Part shown: in pieces, positions 6,693 through 63,062 of the stretch
Layout: every line of letters starts with the position of its first letter
Position numbering within the stretch: position 1 is the first letter of the stretch
Source: Sipunculus nudus
Lineage: Eukaryota; Annelida; Sipuncula; Golfingiida; Sipunculidae
Direction: 5' to 3'
Assembly: GCA_026874595.1 (NCBI GenBank)
Contig: CM049315.1
Location: forward strand, 15,442,164 to 15,506,163
DNA length: 64,000 nt
The notes under the pieces: generated by a model
The model's database searches: none
The model's input: the letters and a program-made list of their open reading frames with translations, nothing else
What the model was told of the DNA's origin: nothing
Made by a program: the position numbers and the translations under genes

Positions 6693-9600
6693 CTTCAGGT
6701 TAAATAAAACACATATAAAATATAGATGAACGACTGTTATAATAATAATTTATCAAACAATACATCAACTAGTTTTCTAAATATGGTCTCTTGCATTGGT
6801 TTAAGAAATAGTCACGTTAGAAAGTTTAGTTAAATAATCAACTTTTGTAAATTACTGTATATTATAATTTGTATATTATAGTGCATTTTATATAAATTTC
6901 AATTTGTTCAATATTAGCTAAATATGTCAATCTGCATAAGCGAACATATTAAATAGGCCGATTTATGGTACAATTCCGTAAATATATATAACATCTTGCA
7001 GGCTATTTCAATGTTGTGACATAATTTACATCATGGGAGCCTTATAGACGGCTGCGCCATTACCATTATAACCTGTACCTCCACAATTTGACGCTTGTAC
7101 ATCCTGCCATTAAATATAACCTGTACCTTTACAATTTGCCGCTTGCACACCGTCTTTAAATATAACCTGTACCTCTACAATTTGCCGCTTGTACACCCTC
7201 TCAATAAGTATTACCAGTATAACTTGTACCGCTATATTTTTCGCTTGTACACCTGTCAAAAAGTTACCAGTAAAACCTGTACCTCCACAATTTGTCGCTT
7301 GTACACCCTGTTTTGAACTTGAGCTCGGTATATTCCTTCCTTTTTTTCATCCGTAGCAAACCGTCGAGTGTTGGCTGCGACAGTCAAACCTGAACTTGTT
7401 ATAACGGGATCACCGTTGTGCCGCAATATGGCGTATACCTTCATAAAAAATGACAAAATAAAAGAAAAGACTTTATACCGTTTTTGCCTAATTTTAAGCC
7501 GCATCCTTAACGGTTTATTATCCCTGTTGTCCGGTAGCTCAACACACGCAGCAGATTTATATATCTGATTGTAATCAATCTCTGATAAGGTTATTTTCCT
7601 TAGATATAAACTTCGCATATGGCTCTTCCGAATATTTAGAATACACCTATAATCGGACTGCATTGTTGTTAATTGTCTTGGTTATTTGACCAGTGTTACA
7701 TTAGATGATCGACAAATGAATCATCTGATTGTTGATAGAAGTAACTGGTCCTTATTCACGATAGCTTAACAATATTTCATAAATTAATGTTTAGCTGTGA
7801 ATGTTGAATAGATGGTAAAGATAGGGGTTTACCTACTTTAGGCAAAAATAGCAGGCAAAGCATTCCGGTTGTCGACAGAATTACCAATACTGAAACAACT
7901 GCATAGGAGAGAGTAGGCTGCGTGGGTAAGAGAGAGGACACTGCGACGACGATGACGCTCGTAAGGACGACATTATACACACTCATTCCGATATACTGAG
8001 AGTCATTGAGCACTGGGATCTTAACATGGCGGGTCTCCCACGCCATATATACTCCAAACAAAAGAAGTAATCCTTTAAATGCATAGTAAGCTCCCAAGAA
8101 CTTGTCCTGGTGATCGGAGCGACACCTGGCGAGGACTGGGATATATACGATGTCCGGATCTGAATATGAAGGCTGAAAAAAAACAAAAACGAAAACGTTT
8201 ATGTTCCCACATAACGTGAATAATGACGTAACAGTCTTTGTTACGGTCACTGTTGCTATTTCTTCCTCTTTATATAGTTTTATTTAGTGTAACATATATT
8301 AATAATGATAAAATACTAGGTTATCCTCTATATTTTCGGCATGTTTAATGGCAATAAACAAATGCATGGAAAAATTATACGAAAGAATTTTTAGTCGTAC
8401 CCTCTTAGTTTTTAGGTACAGGCTGTACGTATATGGCGCTGTATGAAATCGTAATAAAATGTTTTCTATATAAAAAAAATCGACGTTTTTATTTAACGAA
8501 CCAATAAAGAAAACCCGTAAATTTTTATATAAAAAATAATCCTTTTCGTAATCGTACCACCATGGTGAGGTTATACTCCTGCCGCTGCATGGGGTCAATG
8601 AGTATCCATAGCAACAAGTTCAGAGAATCCAGCACCAGCAAGGCTCCTATCAGCAACAGGAGCTGTTTGTCCTGAAGTAGCTGGAAAATAAAAATCACAA
8701 AGCTTAATGTCAGTGTAATTAATGATCATGGTATAGCGATGGTATTATATATGATGTTATCTGTGAACGGACCAAATAAATATACAAGTGTATAATATAA
8801 TGGGGAACCAAGAAATGTCTTAATTATCTATTAAGGAAATATAACCTCTGTCTCAGCGCCATCTAGTATTCAATCGGTGAAATACATGACCTGTAAAAAA
8901 ATATGTACTTTATATATTCGTAAAACTTTTAATATATAATTAGGGACACAGAAAGATGACAAACATTTGCACTGTTAGCACAAAAAAATGATTCAAGGTT
9001 GCATTTCGCGTCCCTTTTAATTAAATAATATGATTTCAAGTTTGGATATTAGATGGCACTTAGTAGTAGAAATGACATTACTACAAAACGTAACAACCAC
9101 GTTTTTTGTATCCCAGTTTACATAATAAATGTCGCACACATTTACATTATAGTATATTGCATAGGGAAGTGCGGCATGCGGAACGTGTTTGATTTTTCAC
9201 ACATGATAGCAAGCAAATTGTACTGCAGGCCTGTTCTCACTGCAAAATCAGACTATCGACTGCTAAGCTCTGACTTTTTCCCGGGAAAAAAAGATATAAT
9301 ACTATTCATTAAAGCCACCTTTCACCTTTCAAACAAAACAAAAACGCAATCGCGCCAGAAATAACAGTGAGCTTGCGTCTTCCTGTTCCTCCACTCCGTG
9401 TTTACATTTTTTCAGACCTCTGCATTCCCTCACTTTTTTTCTTGTTAAGATGATACCACTTTTTTTCTTTTGTGCCCATTTGCCGTACTCATTTCTGTGC
9501 AAGCCGGTATGACCATATATAAGTAATTTGAGGGTATAGCAGATACGCACATTCGTCAGGAAACTCAGTCAGTTGTTAATACGAAGGTTCCACCAGCATA

Positions 9601-20000: not shown

Positions 20001-23000
20001 TTCCGAATATGATACTGATCTATGTATTAGGTTCAAACCCTAAACGCAAGATAACCGGCCAAGCGGTCACCATCGCTGCCCCTGAGTCTAAGATATCAAA
20101 CGACCGCCTAATGCTAACTCTCATTGATCCGTTAGCATTTTTTGCAGAAAAGGTACGGTTTTAACCTCTTACTTGCATCTCTTTCATTTTCTGTGGGATG
20201 TCAGCGCCGTCTGCCCTGAAGGTCATTGTTGCTGTCAAACTTATGTTCGCCTGTCCGAATACATCTAGCATGTCGTTGATTGGCTGCAAAAAATAATGAA
20301 ATAATTTGATTGGATTAGAGCCTCGGGGTTTGTCATTTCCTTGCCGTTATGACTTATGCATGAATTTCCGCAGGGCTTACCGCGGCTTATTATTAGCTCC
20401 ATTTTCGATTGAATTTAATACTTCTGTCTTCACGGTTTGTTGTGTATTCTACATCTATTCCAGAGTAACTATAGTGAATAAGATATTCAATTTTCGATCT
20501 CTTGATCCAGAGTTCTACAACTCAATAAAAATATACCTATATATATATAATATATATATATATGTATATATATACTTATATATATATATATATATATATA
20601 TAAGTATATTTAGAGCTTTACTATAGGACCATAGTGTACTCACGTAAAGTATTATAAAATGTTATTAAATTAAATGTTACAAGTCGATGTATCTTTCAGT
20701 GTTTAATAATTCATGATGATTGATTAAACAATAGTCTTAATATGAACCAATAACATTTAAATGATTCCAGTTTTTATTAATATAGGGAGTTATACGTTTA
20801 GATATGTTTATTTCTGTGATTGACTGATTGATGTCAGGTTAACTGCCATGACAATACCAGTGTTTATCTCTAAAAATTACGTTACAGAGTGCCTTCAACT
20901 GAATAATCAGACTTTCATTAACAAGATATCCACTATTATTTCACAAGATTTGCGCGCTTTTTATTTGCAGTGAAACTGTTGCAACATGGAAGATCTTTTC
21001 ATGGCGAAGGATACAGATGAACCCGTGAGACAGACGCCTTGTTGGAATCAAGAGGACCGTGACCATACTTTAATGGAAAGCCCCGATGATTTGAAAGCGC
21101 ACTCGCAACACGTCGAGGTTATAGCTTTAACAATTCTGTGCTTTGTTAATGAAGCTTTTTAACTTACTTTAATTGGATCAGTTAACCCGGTAACAAATTT
21201 ATCTTTGGGTGTCTATCATCTCGGCCTCGTTGCGACAGACAAATTAACCAATCACGCATGTGATCCGGGGGGGGGGGGGGTTATAACTAGACACGGCGCG
21301 GTAAGCGTATGGAAAGCCCTTAATTAAAACTTTCGGTGTTCACTCCTCTCCTGTCACGCATGGTCATTCAGCTGTTACATCTGCCTCTGTTTGGGGCGTG
21401 TCCTAATATTTCCGACATGCCGTTTTTCAGACCACGAGAGGACTGCATTATTTGATTTGAGTTCATCAAACTGCAAGTGTAAGCATTGATTCATTCCAGG
21501 GGCGCCGACGACACGAAGTTCGTACTTTTTCTCTTTCTAGTTCATGGCTGTTCGTTCGATTAATTGATCAAAGATAATCTTGCTAAGAGCTCAAGATCAA
21601 ATACATGAGAAAATCTGCCATCCCGCCTTCGCAGATGATGGAAAATCATTAAGTTCAATCGGTGTGCCGCGGGAGCAACATGGTTTGATATCATCGATAT
21701 TCACTGTAGCATAAATAACGCAAGACCATATGAAAGACGTAAGCAAATGATTTAAATCTGATCACATCACAACACATCGTCGAGTAGATATTTGTAGCTC
21801 GTCTGAGGCCGGGATAGAATGCATTTGATTTTTAAATGTCAGCTCCACAATATAATGATATGGGATGTTTCTATTGTCAGTCATGTATTCAAATCAGAGT
21901 GACAAGGCCTCTCTACCTAGAAGAATAAAAATGGGCCATGCGAGGTCTTTAAGAAAACAATGGCTGTTCTTCCCCAGTGGAGTTAATGATTGAAGCTTAA
22001 AGGGACAAATATCCCCAGTACCTGCCGATTCTGTTAAAGCAAGCAGACCTGCCTCCTCAGAAGATCAAGAGTTGGAAATAACAAAATTCATTTTAATTTC
22101 AATTAAATCAGAATTATGTGATGGGTCAACCCTCTAAACATTCCCGCCAGTTGTAAATCAATAGATTTTAGTCTGAAAAAAATCCAAATGTGTGGGCGGA
22201 TGTAAGAATAATTATCTTCTGTGTTAGCAAAGGTTACTGATATCAGGGGCCTGACTGATATTACTACTAATATGAAAATTAATACAGTTACGGCTAATAC
22301 ACTCTGCATGTAATCTCTCTCCCTGAAGTGTCATTTCATTCACGCAGAGCCTCGTTGATCACGCGCTTCACCTTCACAGACACTCGCGTATATTGTAATA
22401 AATAAATTATTATTTGTCTTTCCGTTTGCTTGCATGGCACAGATAATTAATTTGGAATCATGTTTACTGATATATCTGATAATAAATGTTGAAGGAGGGC
22501 GACAATACAGAAGGGATGGGGGTTATATAACCTCCAACCTCCCCGACACACACATTTTGGCAAGGCGGATTTCAAATGTAATCACCCCCTCCCCCCCCCC
22601 CCCCGCCGCTATTCAGAAAGTAAGATTTATATACTGGAAATAAAATAAATGAATAATTCGAATGAATGACTTTTGTTACAGTTTCGCCTTACATTTGACC
22701 ATAAGTTTTAATCCTGTAATTTTTCGTAATATCTTTAATACATTTAGCTTCACAGGCAACTATATGGAACAATGGATATTTTTTAATATTCGTATAAGTT
22801 TAAAAAAAGTAGCCCCAACCTACCCATGAGCCATCCCCACCAAATCTGGGAGATAATTTGACGTCCCAGAAAAGGGTGATATAAATTCATGTATATGTGA
22901 CATATAAATCATACAGTGTTTAGTTATTTATTAATGTTTTTCACTAGGATAGGTCCATGGCCTGTTTGCAAGAATATGCTATTCCTAAAGCTTTATGATG

Positions 23001-27500: not shown

Positions 27501-29317
27501 TGTTAGCGTAGCCATGTATTTGGTGTCTGCAATACTGAAACCAGCCAGCGAGATGTGCACGAAGCCTTTGTTGTTACATTTAGTTTGAATTACCGCTCAC
27601 CGCCCGTGCATCGTATGTGCCCGAGGACCTATGCAAACCACTTGTGGGGCCACTCTCTCTGAGCCTGTGGCCTGTTCAGACGGTTGCCGGGGCGATGAGC
27701 TGTCATTCAAAACAAAATGAACAACATTGGCCCCGTGTATACTCGCTTGGCTGGTAAACAGTTTTGTCTTCCAGCACAGGGTCTCATCTGATTCGACCAA
27801 AATACAGTGCTCACCTCTGGGGAGGATACGAGGTCAAAACAAACAGCGCTCACGATATAGGTAGTAGGACTATAGGTAAAGCGCTGTGTATAGAGCGTAA
27901 CCAGTCCGTTGCCCGAAGTTATTTTGAGAAAATAAGCACATTCTACGTTGACATTTCGTCACACAGAAATTTTTCACTTTGCATTATTTGTCATGTGAAG
28001 ATGTTACAATTGTTTGCGTCCTTTAAGGCCTGCTTAGTGAATGGAGATAAAACAAGAAATCTGCATTTTAACGATCCGGGGCATCCGCTATGTGGAGGTT
28101 CCCAATTGTGGGACAATCCCTGTGCGCGTTTGCATTCACGGTCCGTATTCCAAAGTTCATTCATACAAAAAGGACTCTAGGTGTTTGTGAATATTCCCTG
28201 ATGACGCTCCTGAATCCGGACCATGTGCCACACGAAAATCTGATCGCTTCTTCACTGGCTAATTTCCAAAACGCTCCGAAATTATCATCATATTCTGTTC
28301 AAGACTGCGTGAGTTGTGTTGTGAATAAACACAAAAAATACACACACGAGCAAGGATGAATGTATAACCCTCTTACCCTCAATTTGTACTATATGATGAG
28401 TTTAATCTTACTGACAAACTAATGAGAAGCCTTTTGGAATTCAGGATTTGTAAACATATTCATATTTATATCCTGTCGTTGAGGTTTATAGCTAACTTGT
28501 GAAGGTCTGAATGATGTCTCATGGTTTTTTTATTCGGAGGTTATGGTGGGCCTTGAAGTGTAAGTAGTCCATCGCCTGGGTTTAATACATAAGCTCCCAA
28601 GTCTCGGTCTAAGATGCCAAATATCATGAATATTCATAAAATTGTGTGCGAATCCCAGTTTTAAGGAAGCAAATAGGTGATAACTGACCTCACCATGAAC
28701 TTTACGTGACCTTAAAAGTATATTCATTTAATGAATAATCATGAGCATAACTGTTCCACGCAACAAATCAGGTCGCCAATATCACTGTAAACCGTGAGTC
28801 ACCTGACAATAATAAAATTTGCATAATTTGGGAGAGTTCTCCAAAACAGAACACGTGTAGTCTGTACCAGTACCCGTGTCGGCATGTTTTCGGGATATAT
28901 TTTTATACAAAGGAGGCAGTATAAAAAGTTCTCGGCCAAAGGTTGCAGAAGCCATGAGCGAGTGAATAATAATGAATAATAATGCATGGCACGTGATTCG
29001 TATGAGACAAATAATCCAATATATTGCAAGACGGTTCACAATGACTGCGATATACTCAACAGTGCAGCGATTACAGATGATGACGTCAGTCAATGCGACG
29101 TCTACGTCATCCACCTTTGCAATGTCATTATTGTCCTGTAAACAGCTCTCGCAAGGAAGACCTTCTGTAAAGGACCGTTTTGGGGGGCTCATTTTAATAA
29201 TTAGATAAAAAGGGCGAGGCGTAAGGGCTCTGGTGGTGAGGTCAACTTGCAATAATTTAATATAGATTCTTTCGGCGTAAACGAGTGGGTCTAGAGTAAA
29301 GAAAAGAAAAGTATTTT
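24566..29317. other. No recognised gene; probable upstream intron or flank of the receptor gene
   Basis: This should hold the intron leading to exon a, and perhaps earlier receptor exons, but no frame with signal-peptide or N-lobe features was found. An acceptor-like TTTTATTTCAG followed by an ATG frame of 33 codons occurs on the minus strand near 26245, without recognisable protein. A TC run lies at about 25626-25638. An open frame of 138 codons at 27764-28180 (+) has no recognised motif. Confidence 0.4.
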
Positions 29318-29699
29318 CACAATGTCAACACGTATTTTCACAATGTCAACACGTATTTTCACAATGTCAACAAGAATCTTTTAATGTTGCAACCCTTTTT
29401 TCAGAATGTCAAGACGTATTTTCAGAATGTCAGAATTTCAGGATGTCAACACGTATTTTCAGGATGTCTGCGCATATTTTTCAGGATGTCAGCAGGTATT
29501 TTCATAATATCAACACGTATCTATTTATATAGCAACACGCATTTTCCGAATGTCAATGCGCACTTTCAGAATGTTAACATGTATTTTCAGAATGTCAAAA
29601 TGTATCTTCAGGATGTCAAAACGTATATTCAAATTTCAAGACGTCATTTTCAGGATGTTGACACATATTGTCGAAAGTCGACTCGTATTTTTAGAATGT
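29318..29699. repeat. 21-bp minisatellite, left part
   Basis: Imperfect repeats of about 21 bp with consensus ATGTCAACACGTATTTTCAGA on the plus strand, with some spacing changes. Because 21 is a multiple of three and the unit lacks stops in some frames, long meaningless frames (for example MSTRIFR repeats) appear. The array is continued at 30406-30987 after an inserted element. Confidence 0.9.
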
Positions 29700-30405
29700 T
29701 GTTACGAAGACAAATAAATAAGGGGGAAATCCTGGGCCGATCTTGGATTCGAACCCATAACGGTGGCGCACAAGTCCGGCGTCCAAACCGCTTCGCTAGC
29801 AAAGGAAGCTTCACCAGCGAGACAGTTCGGTCCGCTTTTATGTCACCCCGTAACACAACCCCTTTTAAGACCGTTCTGCTATCAAAACAAGACTAATTAT
29901 CCCAGGAGTCACACTTTGGTGAGCTTATTCCCTGGGCCACAAAGTTTAAAGTCACGTTGGACGAGCCAACATTTTGTTACGAAGGCAAATTGATCAGGGG
30001 AAGACATTGGGCCGGTCCCGGATCCGAACCCATGTCGTTGGCGCACAAGTCCGGCGTACCAACCGCCTCGCTAGCAAAGCAAGCTTCACCAGCGGGACAG
30101 TTCGGTCCGCTTTTATGTCACCCCGTTTCACAACTCCTCTTAAGAGCGTCCTGCTATTAGAACAAGACTAATTATCCCAGGAGTCACACTTTGGAGAGCT
30201 TATTCCCTGAGCCACAAAGTTAACCGTCACGTTAGACGAGCCCCCATTTAATTACAAATGCAAATAAATGAGGGGAAAATCCTGGGCCGATCCGGGAGTC
30301 GAACCCAGGTCGGTGGCGCACACGTCCGGCATACCAACCGCTTCGCTAGCAAAGCAAGCTTCACTAGCGTGACAGTTCGGTCCGCTTTTATGTTACCCCG
30401 TAACA
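29700..30405 (-). mobile_element. TRIM-like element: three 156-bp terminal repeats, two 119-bp internal parts, tRNA-like boxes
   Basis: Three blocks of 156 bp (29700-29855, 29975-30130, 30250-30405) are separated by two spacers of 119 bp. Block 1 starts TGTTACGAAG and the last block ends CCCCGTAACA, the TG...CA ends of an LTR. ATGT flanks both sides (29696-29699, 30406-30409), a possible 4-bp target duplication, though the host array itself contains ATGT. Read on the minus strand, each block carries an A-box-like GCTAGCGAAGCGG and, about 44 nt on, a B-box-like GGGTTCGAATCC, as in tRNA genes. In that orientation AAAAGGGG lies just before a block start, where an LTR element's polypurine tract would be. 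No coding frame is credible. It could instead be a tandem tRNA-derived SINE; the equal block and spacer lengths favour the LTR reading. Confidence 0.65.
29745..29800 (-). promoter_or_regulatory. tRNA-like A and B boxes in block 1
   Basis: On the minus strand GCTAGCGAAGCGG (29788-29800) resembles the RNA polymerase III A box and GGGTTCGAATCC (29745-29756) the B box. Equivalent pairs occur in block 2 (30063-30075 with 30020-30031) and block 3 (30338-30350 with 30295-30306). Blocks 2 and 3 each carry a base change in the B box. The sequence does not fold into an obvious complete tRNA. Confidence 0.6.
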
Positions 30406-30987
30406 ATGTCAACACGTATTTTCAGGATGTCAAGACGTACTCTCAGGATGTCAAAATGTATTTTGAGGATGTCCATACGTATTTTCAGAATGTCAACACG
30501 TATTTTCAGAATGTCAACACGTATTTTCAGAATGTCAAAACGTATTTTCTGGATGTCAAGACGTATATTGAAATTGTCAAGACGTAATTTTAAGGATGTC
30601 GATACGTATTGTCAGAAAGTCGACATAAATTTTCAGCATGTCATGACGTACTTTCAGGATGTCAAGACGTACTTTTAGGATGTGAGAACGTATTTTTAGG
30701 ATGTCAATACGTATTTCAGATTATCAACACGTATTTTCAGGATGCCAACACGTATTTTCAGAATGTCAACACGTATTTTCAGGATGTCAACACGCATTTC
30801 TAGAATTTTAACACGTATCTTCAGAATGTCAACACGTATTTTCAGAATGTCAGCACGTATTTTCAGGATGTCAAGACGTATTTTCAGAATGTCAACATGT
30901 ATTTTCAGGATGTCAAGACGTATGTTCAGAATGTCAGCACGTATTTTCAGGATGTCAAGACGTATTTTCAGAATGTCAACACGTATT
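30406..30987. repeat. 21-bp minisatellite, right part
   Basis: The same 21-bp unit as at 29318-29699, about 27 copies, more regular toward 30990 where copies alternate between ...AACACG... and ...AAGACG... forms. Open frames run through it on both strands (for example DILKIRV repeats on the minus strand) and are best explained by unit length, not by selection. Confidence 0.92.
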
Positions 30988-32356
30988 TGGAATTTATGTT
31001 CACAGTTTTCCACACCAGGCCCTGCTGTTAGCTTATATTCCACTGATGTTCAGACATAATCATTTATGTACCGCTAGTGTCTGCCGTGTGGCAAACATTC
31101 CACGTCCCCTTCCTTGAGATGAATCGTCAACGTTTTCTGTATAAACTGGCTTTGGGTCAGTCAAGGACACATTTAAGCTGTTAGAAGTGAGTGCCTGACG
31201 GACATGACAATTCGCGCCATGGGACCTGTGTGTTGCTTGATGGCTCGTCTCGACCACATTGTAGAGAGCGAATGCTTGTTGTAAGCCAGAACATGTTCGA
31301 GCTAAGGATAAGAAGATAAGAAGTCCGCAATGTTGACCTTTTGGCCACTGTAACCGGCTGTCTGTCAGGCTGCCAGCTGGTCTTTACAGATAAAAAGTTC
31401 TTCCGTCATTTCATTATACAGATGATTTCGGTTAATTTCTACCGGGTCGTACTTTTTATTCTCCGAATCTACATTATTTAATGACTACCTGAATAAACTT
31501 TAGAGTATTTTGAGGAAGAAATCGTTTTTACTTTGAAACCCAGTATATCATTTATTTTCCCATTGTCATAAATTTTTGAAAGAGCCATTACTGTATTACA
31601 GGAATACATAATGTAATCCTACATGAGATGATTTTGTATCTTTTTCAAGTTAGGATGATATTTAAGATGCATCAAATGATTACTGTTGAAGTTATTGTGT
31701 TTCATATTTGTATAAGGAATACTATTTGCCCGGTGTCTACAGCTATTGAATGGCGAAGACATGGCCGTTGGTATTCTAGTGTATGCTGTATCATTAAACG
31801 GCTGTCTAAATGTATCCGGCGGCATGCCTCTTCGAAACCAGTGATGTTTTGACATAAGCTGTCATGACCTGCCGGTATGGTCAGGCTGTTAAGCTACAGA
31901 TATCGGTTTATAGTCTGATATAATCGTGTCAAACTCATGCTATTTTAGAATTTTTCTGAGCCACACTGGGAACCTGGACATCACCACAAGCGAGAGGTTA
32001 TATCTCCCTCGGTATCCAACCTGCAGTGACGAAATAATATTGAGCTTAGCATGTGGCAATTACAGAGCAAAGTCAAAAGTGCCACAGATTATAAACATGT
32101 ACATTGTATATACTAGTATATGGGCGTGCCTTTATAGAATAGATACCTATCTCTGTTAAATACAGTAAAATTACCATTATTATAGCTATTCATATCCACA
32201 GCCTGGTTTTATTGTAGTGACTTTCCCGTTCTCTGACGTCAACGGATTTTATTAAGCAAGATCTGTCCCGCAGCCCATGTAAAAATACCCTGACATGAGT
32301 AGTCTCATGCAAATTATCAGGGGATGTACCAAAGATTTAGAATATCTATATACTAT
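30988..32356. other. No recognised gene or repeat
   Basis: Ordinary intergenic or intronic sequence. Short open frames on both strands show no motif. AT content rises after 31480. Confidence 0.4.
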
Positions 32357-32720: not shown

Positions 32721-35700
32721 TTTGTTAAACATGTATAATTTCTTTTCTTGTATTAATAATAGTCTAATGCAAATTTAGTTTTCTAATTGTGGTTGAGATT
32801 AAAGACATGTTTAAATTGGAAGCCGCAAGCGTGTCTTAAGAAGTTTACTATTAAATGTTCAAACAGGCCTGATATACCATAGACCAAAGGTCCATCCCAG
32901 GAAATGTGCATGTCTGCTTCAGGACTTATTGGTACACGAGAAATATTCAATACAACAAAAAGAAAGAAGTAATCAGTCATTCATTAATGCCGTATGTTAA
33001 CACATGAGAAATTCGGTTAAAAAAATAGTACTTTAATAATATTTACATACTGAATTTACATACTGTTACTAATTTTTCTGTATGCAGAGTGGTCACAAAT
33101 GAAGAGTGTACGTCAATTTTATATAATTAAAACGATCATGACATTAAATTACATGTCATCCAATGGAATCATTCCTCGTTTTAAATGAAGAAATTGTATT
33201 TTATAAAGTCTGATTAACTGCAGGTTGTAATTTTATAGTTCTCTATTTCTCAGTAATTTTCTAAATAGGATATGCCCTTCCGATGTATATAAATATGATA
33301 CACTGAGTTAGTTTCTGTACTCTTTAGTCCCCCGTAACAGTTATGTGACATCTATTCCTAACGTATATATTTAGGGCAAATTATATTTATTCTGGTAAAT
33401 AATGAAAAGACCGGTCAAGGATATCCATAAATATATAATCTCGGCCAGTAGCGGAATTTTACCCTTCCCTCCATATTAAAAAAAACGACTTTCATAGTGG
33501 CACGAACTGCGATGCTGAAAAAAGCACTGTAATATAGATGAGAATGTAGATGACGCCACACAACCTACAGGTATGATGACAAACAATTAAGTATTTTCTA
33601 ACAACTTACCAGGTGCGAAAAATATTCTATTATAACCTTACTTTTTCATTTGAAATTTTCCTGCATGGTGTTTAATTTTTGACTGTATCCAGGCATGTCT
33701 AACACGGGTAAGAGAATGTTTGACAAGTCGGGCGGCACGGCGGTTACCATGCAGTTGGCATTTATACTTCGGTGAACATTCACAAACATTTTTTGTCTCA
33801 TTTCATAATTTATAACATAGTGGTTAAAGCGTTAAGATTTATGTCCATTGCAGGGCAATTTCCTGTATGACTAATGTCACGACGCAGAGTTGGCTGCCGC
33901 GTGTTTTCGCGGCTGCTCACCAGCCCGTTAGAAACACAATTTATTTTCAAGGAAAAAGGCATATGGTAGACGGTTATGGGTCATTATAAGTGTTGGCCTG
34001 TTAAGAAAATACACTTGTCTCCACTTATCATATTATTACACATATGATCGTTACGATATGTCCATGTGGAATGATTATTAATGTTACTTGGTCAGGTTTG
34101 TGATTTTGCAACAGTGAGTAATTTTTAAAAATATTTCTGTTATTACATAAACAAATAGAATATAAATGCAAATCCTGTCCCAACTGCTACTTCAGTCTCC
34201 TCTTGTGTACGTTACATCGATAAAATAAGAGGATTGATGAATACATTAGTGTGTACATATAACACTCTTTGCTCTGTGATCTGTGATAATGCAAAATAAT
34301 GTTTCAAAGCATGACCTACGTTTTACAAAAAGTAGTAGATTTCCGAGGAGGCAGAAAGTGTCAGAGACCCTGGTTATATTTCCTGAGATGCTTCGACCTA
34401 CAGTTTGTAGAAAATCCAGTCAAATGCGCCTTCCACAGAGTTCAAGGCTCGTGGCGATGATTTGTGTATTGATAAACGACATACATACCTCCCCTTTTAC
34501 TGTAAAGCAGCAGAAAGTGTCTGCGGAGTATTATCGAGCGCAGTTAGTGTAAACGATCATCTGGCTTCCCATGAGCGCTGACACCAAAACCCGATGCTGT
34601 ATGTATCGATCTACTCTCTGTGGTCGCCCTTAGGAACGCCGGCGGGGTCTCTGCTGTCATTTCTTTCGTTTATAAATTTTGCTTTGAACGGCAGTGGAGG
34701 TTAAATGGATTAAAAAAAGAGTTTGCATTTGTCTCTTCAGTTTTCTACTGGTCTTTTACGCAGAAAAATACACATCCAGATTCTCATTTGTTTGTTTTCT
34801 TTAGAAAATTGCACTCCATTTCCATGTTTATAAATTACCTAATTATTGCCTGGTTTATAAAATAGCCATCTTCAGAAGCGATACATATTTCTACAGAAAT
34901 AACGATGTAACACTTTGTGCTATAAATATGGAGCCTCGTGTTTTCGGAGGCCTCAAAACATAATTTCATGCTTGGTAAATCCTGTGATTTGATATTAATC
35001 ACATTCCTGTCATTTGTATTAAATGTTATGTCCTAGAAATATGGCAGTATTTCATGCCAGTGATTATGGGAGAACTCAAAATTTGTTTTACACACAATAC
35101 AGCTTTACCATTATGGGCAACTCTTATACCTGAGAATCAACTGTATATGTGTCATCACCGTGGCCTGTGTGTACCATATCCATGATATGCAGCTAGTCTT
35201 TACATTTTTTTACAGATGTATATTTGTTGTATGTGTAAATGCTTTTTTAAGCTATGCACTGGATTTAATTTTGACTCGGGAATAGGTAACAGCCCAATGG
35301 AATACTATTTTTTTTTATTTTTATCCTTTAATAACCAGGCTCGGTGACCTGCTCTGTGTAAAGCCGTTCCAACTACTGGGTCTTTATATCATATCTTTGC
35401 GACAAAGCGCAAGAAGGAAAATCACCGACTGTACAAATACTGTACACCACTATACAAATAATAATCCTTTTATAATTTGCGGATGAGGGTGCGGTCATCT
35501 CAAAGTGTTTCTCTGTTTTCTGCTTGGAAGATCCGAGTCAAATGACTACCTATAACTTTCTCCGCAGATAGGTTCCAACCTTGGGACCAACTTTCAGCTT
35601 TTAAAAAATGAGCCATTTAAGATATCTAGATCAAGAAACGGATGGTAGAAAGAAAAAGGAATTTAAGTAGTGCCACCAAAACTTTTTTTTATCAAAATTG

Positions 35701-41964: not shown

Positions 41965-42020
41965 TAAACCACAACCACGGTCGATCGGCAGTCAGGGATC
42001 GAACCAGCGGTCTATCCGCT
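41965..42020 (-). mobile_element. Possible tRNA-derived SINE fragment
   Basis: The minus strand reads GGTAGCGGATAGACCGC and then GGTTCGATCCC (41995-42005), a good RNA polymerase III B box in a tRNA-like setting. The A box is not clear and no tail was identified. Confidence 0.35.
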
Positions 42021-43212
42021 ACCCTAATTAAGGATGCTACACTCAGACTATTAGGAACAATTTTATATGCATCAGAACAGATCTGGCCTCGTACGAATTC
42101 TAATCTGGGATATGTTTCAGTCTTAAAAGAAGTTTGCAGAGTATTTCCTGTTATTTTTAATACAACCTTAGGGCCACTGTATTCATATTGAGCTTATCTG
42201 GTTTCTATACACATGCACAAATCTATAGGCTTTTTCCATACAACTAATCTTAGGATAAATAAAAGATATTCCTTGGCCTCATGCCATACCACAACGTTAT
42301 TAAATGGCACCATAACAAGCCTACTGTGAATAATCCGGCTCGTATACGCTAATCTTCAATGTTGTTTAGATAACAATTTTGATAAAACTGACTTCACTGT
42401 ACCTTTATCTAGAAATGCAACGTAAAGTGACATTATCAAAGTGTAACACCGGGCACAGACACGTAGTTAAAGACTGTTTTTCTTCATTAGACTTTTCTAT
42501 TGATCCTTCATTTTGCCCATACCGGATGTATATACCTTATAGAGGAATCAGCGGAAGTTAAGTGGTGTTCTGTGTTTTCCTCGTCGCATGGATCATTTTG
42601 CTTGGGGTAGAATTATATAAAAGTCGAATAGGGAACAGGGGCGTGATCTCACTAAGAGGTCTTAAAATCATAATATTTCCTAAACTTTGTAATCCTTCAC
42701 TATCATACAGGTAAGCAAAGTACTTTTATCATTAGGCAAAGAAAATATAAAGATATTCAGACACCATGCACGCAGAGCAAATGTGCTTCCTCTCCCTAAA
42801 ATGTTCCCTAAAATTATAAAAGTTCGTTAAATTTTCTTTAGGGTTGTCCCCTGGTCATGAGATTTAAAAAAAAAAAAAACAAGTTCACAGGCGTGACCTA
42901 ATTCGAGCCGCCTTTGTTCCAGCTGGTCGAAATGTAATGTGATGCAGTTGTTGAGCCCTGTCACCGTTTCTCTCAGCTTATTAACAAATGTGTTTGTTAG
43001 TCGACGTGTATCACTGAATATTCATACACATCAGAGCATAACGTCCCTTTCCCCCTTATAGCAAATGTTATTTTACGTAATGTTGAACCGCCACCATTGA
43101 AATATCTCGCATCACATAGACGAGCGATAATAAGGAATAGTTATATCATGTCGCAACAAAACCAAGGGAGTAGTTCTTGGTCCTACAACATGTAAATTGC
43201 AGAGACTGAACA
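42021..43212. other. No recognised gene or repeat
   Basis: No supported coding exon. A run of A is at about 42868-42880. Confidence 0.35.
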
Positions 43213-54470: not shown

Positions 54471-54599
54471 TCAAAACATGTTTTATTTTGTAGACATTTT
54501 GGAGACATGATTAAAATGCTAATATGCCTTCGATGGGCAAATGTAATTTTTTTCTAGGAAAACGAAACTTTCTTTTGGAACATATAAAAACATGAAACA

Positions 54600-54970
54600 C
54601 AGTGACATGTTTTACTCTAAGTTAAAACATGCTTCTTTGGAAAACACATGTTTCGAAAAAATGGGACAACTACACGTTTTAGGCTGAACAGACGTTTTGA
54701 ATAGTTACATGTTTTATGAAAGTGAAACATGTCTTAAAACATGTCTTATATGTGACATATTTCATATAATGACATGTAACACTGAGACATGTTTAACTCT
54801 AAGTTTAAAACATGTTTCTTAGGAGAAAACATGTTTCGAAAAATGGGACAACTACATGTTTTAGGCTAAACAAACGTTTTAAATAGTTACATGTTTTATG
54901 AAAAATGAGACATGTCTTAAGACATGTCATATATGTGACATATTTCATATAAAAACATGTAACACAGAGA
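54600..54970. repeat. Two tandem units of about 182 bp, ACATGTTT-rich
   Basis: A unit starting GACATGTTTTACTCTAAG near 54604 is followed by a similar unit starting near 54784, and the start motif appears again near 54967. They share TGGGACAACTAC, TAGTTACATGTTTTATGAAA and GTGACATATTTCATATAA blocks in the same order. Confidence 0.85.
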
Positions 54971-55173
54971 CATGTTTTATCTTACTGTCCATGAAATTTT
55001 CTCTGTGTGTGAAACATGTTTTATATATAACCATGTTTCAAGAGGATTAAAAACATGTTTTCGCAGTTGAAACATCTGTGAGTCATGAAACATGCTGGAA
55101 ACATGTTTCGAAAAATGGGACAGAATGGTGTTTTAAATAGAAACGTGAAACATGTCCTCAGTTTTTAGAGTGT

Positions 55174-59918: not shown

Positions 59919-62520
59919 CGAAAAGGATCTGAATTAATAATATTTCTTACGCAGTACTGACGCTTCCGCTTAAAACATTTAGAAAACATTTGTGTATGAT
60001 AAAAAAAGGACAACTATATTCAACAAAATGCCAATATTATTAGTTTCCGAAAGAGTGATCTCAGAAATGACATTTATACCAGTTGGAACTAGAGGTTGTT
60101 CATACAACATGTGCTGTATTGGAAAACTTTATGCTAAACCTGAAACTGGCAAGGTGATTGCTATGCGTTGTGTGCAAACATCTCTCCAGCAAGAGTGCGG
60201 ATATGGACTACCCATACGAATAACTGAACCCAACCTAGATAAAACCCACAAAGAATATTTACGGACTACGCATACGGACTACAGATACGGACAAAGATCT
60301 TATGGAAAATTACCTATACCTGAAATAAATGTAAAGGTTATTAATCTGTTACCTTTATCCTATGATCCGATGGTGCATGGTATGTAGCGGAAAAGCTTAA
60401 TAGATGCTAAGAATGTTATACCTTGTAACTTGTTGCACTTGTGTTATGAAGAAAAAATTGTAGCTTCATTTCCGAAAAAAAATCGTTAAACGCGTCGGCG
60501 CAACCTAAATAAATGGTATGTAAAAGAAACCATTGTGGCTAATAGATGAAAAAAGAAACCATTGTTGCTAATATATCACAAATATTTCAATCTGCATGAA
60601 GTATATGCAGAAAGTGAAAGAGAATGTTGATTAAAAAATATGGAGGACTTTGTTACTCTGAATAACATTTTCAACTTCACGTAAAAAGTAAAAACAAAAT
60701 GGATTTTCATTTACTATGCCATGTCTTTGCACAACTTCTGTGGTTATTAAGGTAATAAAACAGGTTTATCTGTTACATGAACTAATGTACAATACACAAA
60801 ACTCTGCAAAGAACATTTTCTGTACACCGCACAAATTCCGTAACCACTGCACGCGGGAACGTAAATGAATCCGGAACATGTGACGAAGACACGTATGCTA
60901 TCCCTAATATTATATACACTGTATTCTGGAGACACGTATGTTAGCACTAATATACTGTGACCTGGCAGCTAAAGTCGAAGCGTGAAGCAGAATGACACTA
61001 ACAAGATTGATTGCCCAACCTGTCCAGAAATTCACGATCAGAACTCCCGTCATCAGGGCCTCCATATGTCATGACCAACTTAAAGGTCGAAAATAAATAT
61101 CCATACGGAAAAAAATATTTCCACGTGTACTAATGACAACCGGCGAGACGAGCACATGTTTTCGACCACAAGATTCCCTTATCATAAAATATGTTATTAT
61201 CCCTATGTAATCACTTCAGAGGTAAGTTTTTATAGCCAATGTATAATCCGCATTGTGGAAGTATTAAACTGCTGTTTCCTCATGGACTCAACGCACGCAT
61301 CGTTTTCCTGGCTCACCGAAACGCTTACGTTTTATGGACAATATTCGGAGGGCCAATATTGATATTATTGAATTTAACGTGTTGTTATGTTTACTACTTT
61401 CCGGAAGAAAATGTACAATCATGGTCAAAGTCTTTACGGAGATCTACCCGGGGAATTACGCTTTAAATGGTAGGAGGAAAGTACATTCTCCTGGCAGTTA
61501 TAAAACTTTAATTCCAAATGTGGGATCAATAGGACATAGAACATATGTCTTCTTTTGAACAGCAGACGACCTAAATCTTAGTGAGTACCTTCAGTCTGAA
61601 TCACAATTAGGAGAATTCAATATTTATAGCTGTACTTACGAGACTACCTTCCGTCGCTGGTTGTATCATTCAGCAGACGCAAGGCTCCTTTTCCATTCAA
61701 GGAAAGAAAAACCGATTTGACCTGCCACCAGGAGAAGGTCTTACAAAACAAGCCTGTGGTATTGTTTCTCCTCCTCGCATGGTAGTGCAAGAGCTACCAA
61801 TAAATTGTCTTACATTTAACAGTGACGTCTGTTGCATTTGTTTCGGAAATAACGGCAAAAGAAGAGGATTCTATATCAATATAAACCCAACCCGCACATG
61901 CGACGTGGTCAAAGTTTAAAATCCCGTTCGGGAAACACGAAAGAGCAGATTAAACATCAGTAAATCAAGGCTTTGTTATGTAATGAATGGTTACAGGGAT
62001 TTAAAAAGTTTTTAACCTGACTGGTATATTGGTGTTTATTTTGAAGCACTCACTGAAGTAATGGTTTTATATTATGATCACAAGGACGTAATCAGCATGA
62101 AGATAATACACAATATAACCCCGGGTCCCTTTGCCTTACTGAGATGTTTATAAAGTTGTTTTTGGGATCCTTTACTTCATCTTTGATTAGATGGTTGTTT
62201 GTTAGAATCTAAGTATTTAATTGTTGCGCATTAGAATTCTAATATGTTAAAAACATTAGACATTTTACTAAAATACACAGGACATTAAATGACTTTCTGA
62301 CTTGAGAAGACGAGTCGTACACGAAAACATTTATTGGTTATTTGAAAATAAACTCAAGGGTTCTAACTCTACAGTTAATAAGGCTTTTCCAATGTTTCCA
62401 GGTTACATGAGCATCGAAATCCGCATGAGACGTCAGCTGTCGTGCAGCTGATGTGTCTTGGAGGGAAACCTTGGGGAGATTGTAATACCCCAAACCCTGG
62501 ACATCCAGGCACCTTAAGTT

Positions 62521-63062
62521 TGCTAACTAACTTTTAAAAACTTAGAGCTTAGAGCTTTGTCACCAGCAGACTGACTTTATTTTTTTTTGTTTTTGTTTTT
62601 TGTAGTATTTCTTTTTTATTAATATCAGGATGTTTACGAAGGAATAGGAAATTCAAGTGTCATGAGTCGGATTCAGGCCAATGCAGTTTAAAATCGGTAA
62701 AGTTGTCTTGTCTAGGCCGGTTCTTGTTAGGGCACTCATACGGTAGCCTTAAGTGACCGCGCACCTGTATGCTTTTTTGTGCTTTTTTTGCTTTTTGCTT
62801 TTTTTGCTAACTAACTTTTAAAAACTTAGATCATAGAGCTTTGTCACCAGCAGACTGACTTTATTTTGCTTTTGTAGTATTTCTTTTTTTTTATTAATAT
62901 CAGGATGTTTGCGTAGGAATAGGAAATTCAAGTGTCTCGTGTCGGATTTTGGCCAGTGCAGTTTAAAGTCGGTAAAGTTGTCTTGTCTAGACCGGTTCTT
63001 GTTAGGGCACTCATACAGTAGCCTTAAGTGACCGCGCACCTGTATGCTTTTTTGTGCTTTTG
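62521..63062. repeat. 284-bp tandem duplication
   Basis: Unit 1 (62521-62804) and unit 2 (62805-about 63062) both start TGCTAACTAACTTTTAAAAA and share, in order, TTTGTCACCAGCAGACTGAC, a T run, TATCAGGATGTTT, GTTGTCTTGTCTAG and GACCGCGCACCTGTATGC. They differ by scattered substitutions and by T-run length. No gene is recognised inside; short frames on the minus strand in unit 2 are likely chance. Confidence 0.9.

Follow-up and report, generated by a model that had tools for sequence, protein, structure and literature searches.

Among the TRIMs, which are non-coding miniature LTR retrotransposons, those with tRNA-derived LTRs have been described as Helenus (TRIMp3) in fungi, animals and one plant (Kojima 2024, PMC10886601), and the literature that could be consulted, in part as excerpts, yielded this class only in that paper. 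According to the available portions of its text, animal Helenus elements have 4-bp target-site duplications and primer sites resembling those of Gypsy, the primers given for bivalve Helenus and for Gypsy-13_CGi include tRNA-Pro, and the zebrafish element LTR-11_DR forms tandem arrays. Transcription of Helenus by Pol III stands there without experimental validation (PMC10886601). Two further families are relevant for comparison. Cassandra is a 5S-type TRIM of plants (PMC7215508), and biv-TRIM of bivalves has, in the accessible part of its description, a TDR of 202-218 bp, an inner domain of 77-80 bp, a polypurine tract that is mostly GGGGAGA and no canonical primer-binding site (Satovic 2019, PMC6934838). 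The locus analysed here lies in a 64-kb stretch of DNA, referred to as the window, and is very probably a Helenus-type TRIM on the minus strand, with a putative tRNA-derived Pol III promoter in its LTRs and with the trimeric structure LTR-int-LTR-int-LTR.

Anatomy and insertion site

With a period of 275 bp, three 156-bp blocks alternate with two 119-bp spacers without any indels (Table 1). The element measures 706 bp in total, of which one LTR-int-LTR unit takes up 431 bp. The blocks differ from one another at 25, 21 and 23 of the 156 sites and the two spacers at 14 of 119. An earlier, sequence-only reading had proposed this alternating layout, and its coordinates and lengths are borne out; the TG...CA block ends that it reported are present in two of the three blocks but not in the block at 30250, which starts with AATT on the plus strand and has lost its TG.

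Table 1. Coordinates of the element, its parts and its target in the window
Feature	Coordinates	Strand	Details
LTR1 (5'-most in element orientation)	30250-30405	-	156 bp
Internal region 1	30131-30249	-	119 bp
LTR2 (middle)	29975-30130	-	156 bp
Internal region 2	29856-29974	-	119 bp
LTR3 (3'-most)	29700-29855	-	156 bp
Putative primer-binding site (tRNA-Pro), internal 1	30234-30246	-	12/13 match
Putative primer-binding site (tRNA-Pro), internal 2	29959-29971	-	11/13 match
Polypurine tract AAGAGGAG	30134-30141	-	3 bp ahead of LTR2
Polypurine tract AAAAGGGG	29859-29866	-	3 bp ahead of LTR3
tRNA-like segment, LTR1 (LTR positions 51-120)	30286-30355	-	A box 30338-30348, B box 30295-30305
tRNA-like segment, LTR2 (LTR positions 51-120)	30011-30080	-	A box 30063-30073, B box 30020-30030
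tRNA-like segment, LTR3 (LTR positions 55-120)	29736-29801	-	A box 29788-29798, B box 29745-29755
TTTT just 3' of tRNA-like segment, possible Pol III terminator	30276-30279	-	LTR1 only
Hairpin, LTR1 (LTR positions 21-75)	30331-30385	-	-24.7 kcal/mol, z -3.69; overlaps A box
Hairpin, LTR2 (LTR positions 21-75)	30056-30110	-	-27.7 kcal/mol, z -4.30
Hairpin, LTR3 (LTR positions 21-75)	29781-29835	-	-29.3 kcal/mol, z -5.41
21-bp minisatellite left of element (target)	29311-29699		tandem-repeat row
21-bp minisatellite right of element	30405-30988		tandem-repeat row
Target-site duplication copy ATGT	29696-29699		identical to 30406-30409
Target-site duplication copy ATGT	30406-30409		identical to 29696-29699; adjoins the element's other end

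In minus-strand orientation, both spacers open with AAA, followed by a stretch fitting the 3' end of tRNA-Pro as given in excerpts of a primer table (PMC12217144) and a probe list (PMC4688932); the available text of PMC4587795 prints a matching proline primer site from a mouse retrovirus. Of the four tRNA ends that were compared (Pro, His, Lys and Ser), all of which start with TGG, the other three fit internal regions 1 and 2 at 8 and 7 (His), 6 and 5 (Lys) and 6 and 6 (Ser) of the 13 positions. Internal region 1 has TGG followed by 9 matches in the next 10 bases; the chance of finding TGG with 8 or more matches in the ten bases that follow is ~0.002, assuming 46 tRNA ends and 7 offsets. Internal region 2 also matches at 9 of 10 bases, but starts with TGT. 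At its other end each spacer closes with the purine tract that had been noted ahead of a block in the initial reading. Since primer site and purine tract are located at the correct ends of the spacers, the blocks are LTRs and the orientation of the element is fixed. The TRIM assignment made earlier is supported by this tract, by the 4-bp duplication and by two features that had not been listed with it, the tRNA-Pro primer sites and a similarity that spans the length of a tRNA.

The element is non-coding and TRIM-sized. Ten ORFs across the element and its edges were scanned separately with Pfam, nine of them without a match at E 0.1, and the ORF at 29300-29893, which consists partly of minisatellite, has three weak matches far under their cut-offs. 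For the remainder of the window, the Pfam scan comprised 143 of the 414 ORFs of at least 50 aa, mostly those of at least 67 aa, with the ORFs of the element and minisatellite and the repeats near 50 kb set apart; it yielded two ANF_receptor, three RVT_1, one zf-RVT, one DUF7636 and one weak RAG2_PHD match. The ORFs with RVT_1, zf-RVT, DUF7636 and RAG2_PHD are remains of mobile elements. An exon at 7780-8283 on the minus strand resembles GABA-B receptor subunit 2, and on this basis the host is taken to be an animal.

The target of the insertion is a 21-bp minisatellite, and ATGT adjoins the element on both sides. Because ATGT recurs throughout this minisatellite (42 times in ~46 units), a match between the ATGT flanks says little by itself, and the argument for a duplication rests on the register of the repeat. 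When the flanks are joined with a single ATGT retained, both sides best fit the 21-bp unit in one register, the match to the unit over 42 flanking bases being 25/42 on the left, where the nearest 21 bases reach 18/21, and 37/42 on the right. The preserved register together with ATGT on both sides is the outcome expected from integration with a 4-bp duplication, in agreement with the minisatellite insertion and possible ATGT duplication suggested beforehand.

A blastn self-search found no second copy of the element in the 64-kb window. In a laxer gapped scan of the window, the LTR consensus scored best with 56.0 at 1651-2200, compared to 52.5 for a single shuffle, and the spacers scored 47.5 and 51.5, compared to 50.5 and 52.0 for single shuffles; the match at 1651-2200 contains many gaps, is slightly above its one shuffle and is not counted as a copy. 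The sequence CCCCGTAACA at 33330 and a copy with one mismatch at 21186 were considered as LTR ends and rejected, as there is no LTR alongside. Exact element patterns had no match in viral or genome contigs and blastn had none in phages, which says little, since these collections do not consist of animal genomes. A search of the literature text with sequence strings gave one unrelated paper. Among other tandem repeats in the window, one at 62519-63061 also has a period of 275 bp, but the element has no blastn match there and the equal period seems a coincidence. In addition, a 183-bp unit at 54581-54977 is repeated ~2.2 times with 88% matches.

Variable sites are unevenly distributed along the LTRs, with 4 in the 57 sites at positions 14-70 compared to 29 in the 99 sites elsewhere (Fisher P 0.0009 for a segment picked post hoc). 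A scan for segments of low variation placed the best one at positions 5-92 (9/88), and 6 of 300 shuffles did as well. Such a pattern could be due to uneven mutation, to conversion among the LTRs or to constraint that acted prior to insertion, and no conclusion is based on it.

The tRNA-like segment and the promoter

On the minus strand, A and B boxes are found at LTR positions 58-68 and 101-111, separated by a 32-bp gap that corresponds to tRNA spacing. Scored with A- and B-box patterns, LTR1 and LTR3 each reach the full joint score of 16/16, equalled by none of 2000 base shuffles. LTR2 scores 14, with one base changed per box, which was equalled by 13 of 2000 shuffles, and a second A-box position in this LTR scores equal to the chosen one. 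The presence of A- and B-box-like sequences in each block, as first read from the sequence, is confirmed in this graded form. GGTTC, CGG and TRGC are found in all three LTRs, each of which has G rather than Y as its fifth A-box base.

The similarity to tRNA extends beyond the boxes. LTR1, LTR2 and LTR3 align along positions 1-71, 1-71 and 5-71 of human tRNA-His, with a similarity equalled by 0, 1 and 1 of 500 shuffles. For human tRNA-Pro, the corresponding numbers are 3, 1 and 9 of 500, and for human tRNA-Lys 0, 60 and 8, with LTR2 at chance level. The comparison comprised these three human tRNAs, which makes tRNA-His at most a candidate for the parent tRNA. Neither ARAGORN nor Rfam at gathering score reports a tRNA in the window, neither of the two Rfam matches up to E = 5 within 29600-30500 is a tRNA, and relaxed ARAGORN settings give only weak hits conflicting in type and strand. 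A functional tRNA is rejected on these grounds, and the LTR segment is read here, by its sequence, as tRNA-derived rather than as a tRNA gene. TTTT follows the segment in LTR1 and is absent after it in LTR2 and LTR3.

The alternative that survives best is that Pol II transcribes an otherwise ordinary TRIM from the TATA-like sequence CATAAAAG as its promoter, with the A and B boxes present as a relic or by chance. This sequence lies at LTR positions 14-21 and is unchanged in all three LTRs, and the failure of every tRNA finder to accept the LTR also fits such an element. Against it stand the tRNA spacing of the boxes, the shuffle results of LTR1 and LTR3 and the similarity over the length of tRNA-His. 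AATAAA is also absent in the orientation of the element, although one ATTAAA is located where LTR1 ends (element position 154). A Pol II-transcribed TRIM is considered unlikely.

Elsewhere in the window, at 41990-42040 on the minus strand, a full B box GGTTCGATCCC occurs with an A-box-like site (6/7) 34 bp upstream, possibly the remnant of a SINE.

Replication, the LTR hairpin and the origin of the trimer

For a Helenus-type TRIM, the LTR's internal A and B boxes would recruit Pol III and RNA would start just upstream of the tRNA-like segment, which would make this segment the repeated end (R). At the primer-binding site seen in the spacers, tRNA-Pro would prime minus-strand DNA, and the polypurine tract would likewise prime the plus strand. 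A Gypsy-type integrase, probably supplied in trans, would then join the element to the minisatellite and produce the ATGT duplication that is observed. The third LTR may have arisen through a template switch that preceded integration, or soon afterwards through an unequal exchange in which LTRs of this one insertion took part.

The divergence between the two internal regions (14/119) does not differ from that between LTR1 and LTR3 (21/156; Fisher P 0.72). Since the spacers have diverged no less than the outer LTRs, trimer and insertion are of about the same age. A different route to the same structure is the fusion of two separate TRIM insertions by recombination between neighboring LTRs, as proposed for tandem TRIMs and BARE1 in the available text of PMC6934838 and PMC7215508. 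As nearly every unit of the target contains ATGT, insertions at the same place in two units would also result in flanks that match and keep the register. Such a fusion requires the same orientation and the same base of two units, as otherwise the flanks mismatch and the register breaks, and the matching in-register flanks thus speak against it. Although the recurrence of ATGT through the target leaves it some probability, fusion is very unlikely, and the third LTR more likely stems from a template switch ahead of integration or from an unequal exchange between LTRs at an early stage. For Cassandra, routes of both kinds are considered in the accessible part of PMC7215508.

Each LTR contains a hairpin with a folding energy equalled by none of 200 shuffles, although the z-scores are flattered because the segment was picked from folds of the whole LTR. 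In contrast, the spacers fold near chance, with z-scores of -1.40 and 0.03 (18 and 99 of 200 shuffles). The 3' arm of the hairpin overlaps the A box. It is conceivable, but quite unlikely, that the hairpin is functional. Its 5' arm belongs to U3, while its 3' arm falls within the 5' half of the tRNA-like R. In genomic RNA, the U3 close to the 3' terminus could then base-pair with the R at the 5' terminus, forming a circle that would aid strand transfer, and transfer between molecules would yield trimers that integrate as such. If this holds, the element would be a captured product of cDNA multimerisation, and the TRIM behind it an animal one whose promoter is of Pol III type.

Relation to Helenus and other families

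Compared with the available portions of the description of Helenus (PMC10886601), the element shares short LTRs with a tRNA-derived A/B-box segment, the absence of coding sequence, a primer-binding site, a polypurine tract, a 4-bp duplication, a tRNA-Pro primer and tandem arrangement, and its LTR-int-LTR unit is inside the size range of 311-1263 bp. It differs in being a trimer, in the G at the fifth base of the A box, where most Helenus elements have TRGCY, and in the hairpin overlapping the A box, which those portions do not mention. Of the anatomical features of Helenus that were compared, all are present except for the fifth A-box base, and the likeness is one of anatomy.

Cassandra resembles the element in having a Pol III-type promoter in its LTR, tandem LTR/internal arrays and a stable RNA fold, but belongs to plants and carries a 5S rRNA promoter instead of a tRNA-like one (PMC7215508, as far as its text was available). 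On the element strand, its two 5S motifs match the three LTRs at best at 10, 10 and 9 of 12 and at 9, 10 and 9 of 13 positions, equalled by 106-833 of 1000 shuffles, and a Cassandra reading is set aside because the 5S motif fits no better than many shuffles. Like the present element, biv-TRIM is an animal TRIM, and it forms tandem arrays of the type TDR(x)-I(x-1) next to solo repeats. Judged by the accessible part of PMC6934838, it differs from the 156- and 119-bp blocks, the AAAAGGGG/AAGAGGAG tracts and the clear primer-binding site found here; lengths, purine tract and presence of a primer site speak against this reading, and its conserved inner segment matches the element at no more than 9 of 14 positions. 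A retrozyme is set aside as well, as Rfam gives no match of any kind at gathering score in the window, hammerhead ribozymes included, and neither of its two matches within 29600-30500 (E <= 5) is a hammerhead.

A tandemly duplicated tRNA-derived SINE would account for the internal A and B boxes and the tRNA-like segment. However, this segment begins ~50 bp inside the repeat rather than providing a Pol III head start, the array opens and closes with the same 156-bp block without a simple tail, the spacer ends carry a primer site and polypurine tract, and the duplication measures 4 bp, making a SINE highly improbable. Least probable of all is a satellite, with 275-bp units in a short array. The 2.6 head-to-tail units would speak for it, but it is contradicted by the same block at both array ends, the 4-bp duplication and the interruption of another repeat in register.

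Taken together, the Helenus-type element is old and well supported in its anatomy, while its activity is unproved. A tRNA-like counterpart of Cassandra had been regarded as not standard in animals, a view that is out of date given Helenus (PMC10886601, available portions); as Helenus already covers TRIMs with tRNA-derived LTRs, the element is of a known kind and a claim of novelty is not upheld. It does provide a clean added case for this class, in which a single locus combines a promoter of tRNA type with a primer site, a polypurine tract and a 4-bp duplication checked by register. If its host is outside the taxa of Table 1 in Kojima's paper, as far as that source was available (PMC10886601), the range of Helenus would widen. 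More generally, a tRNA-like sequence in an animal genome may be part of a retrotransposon as its LTR.
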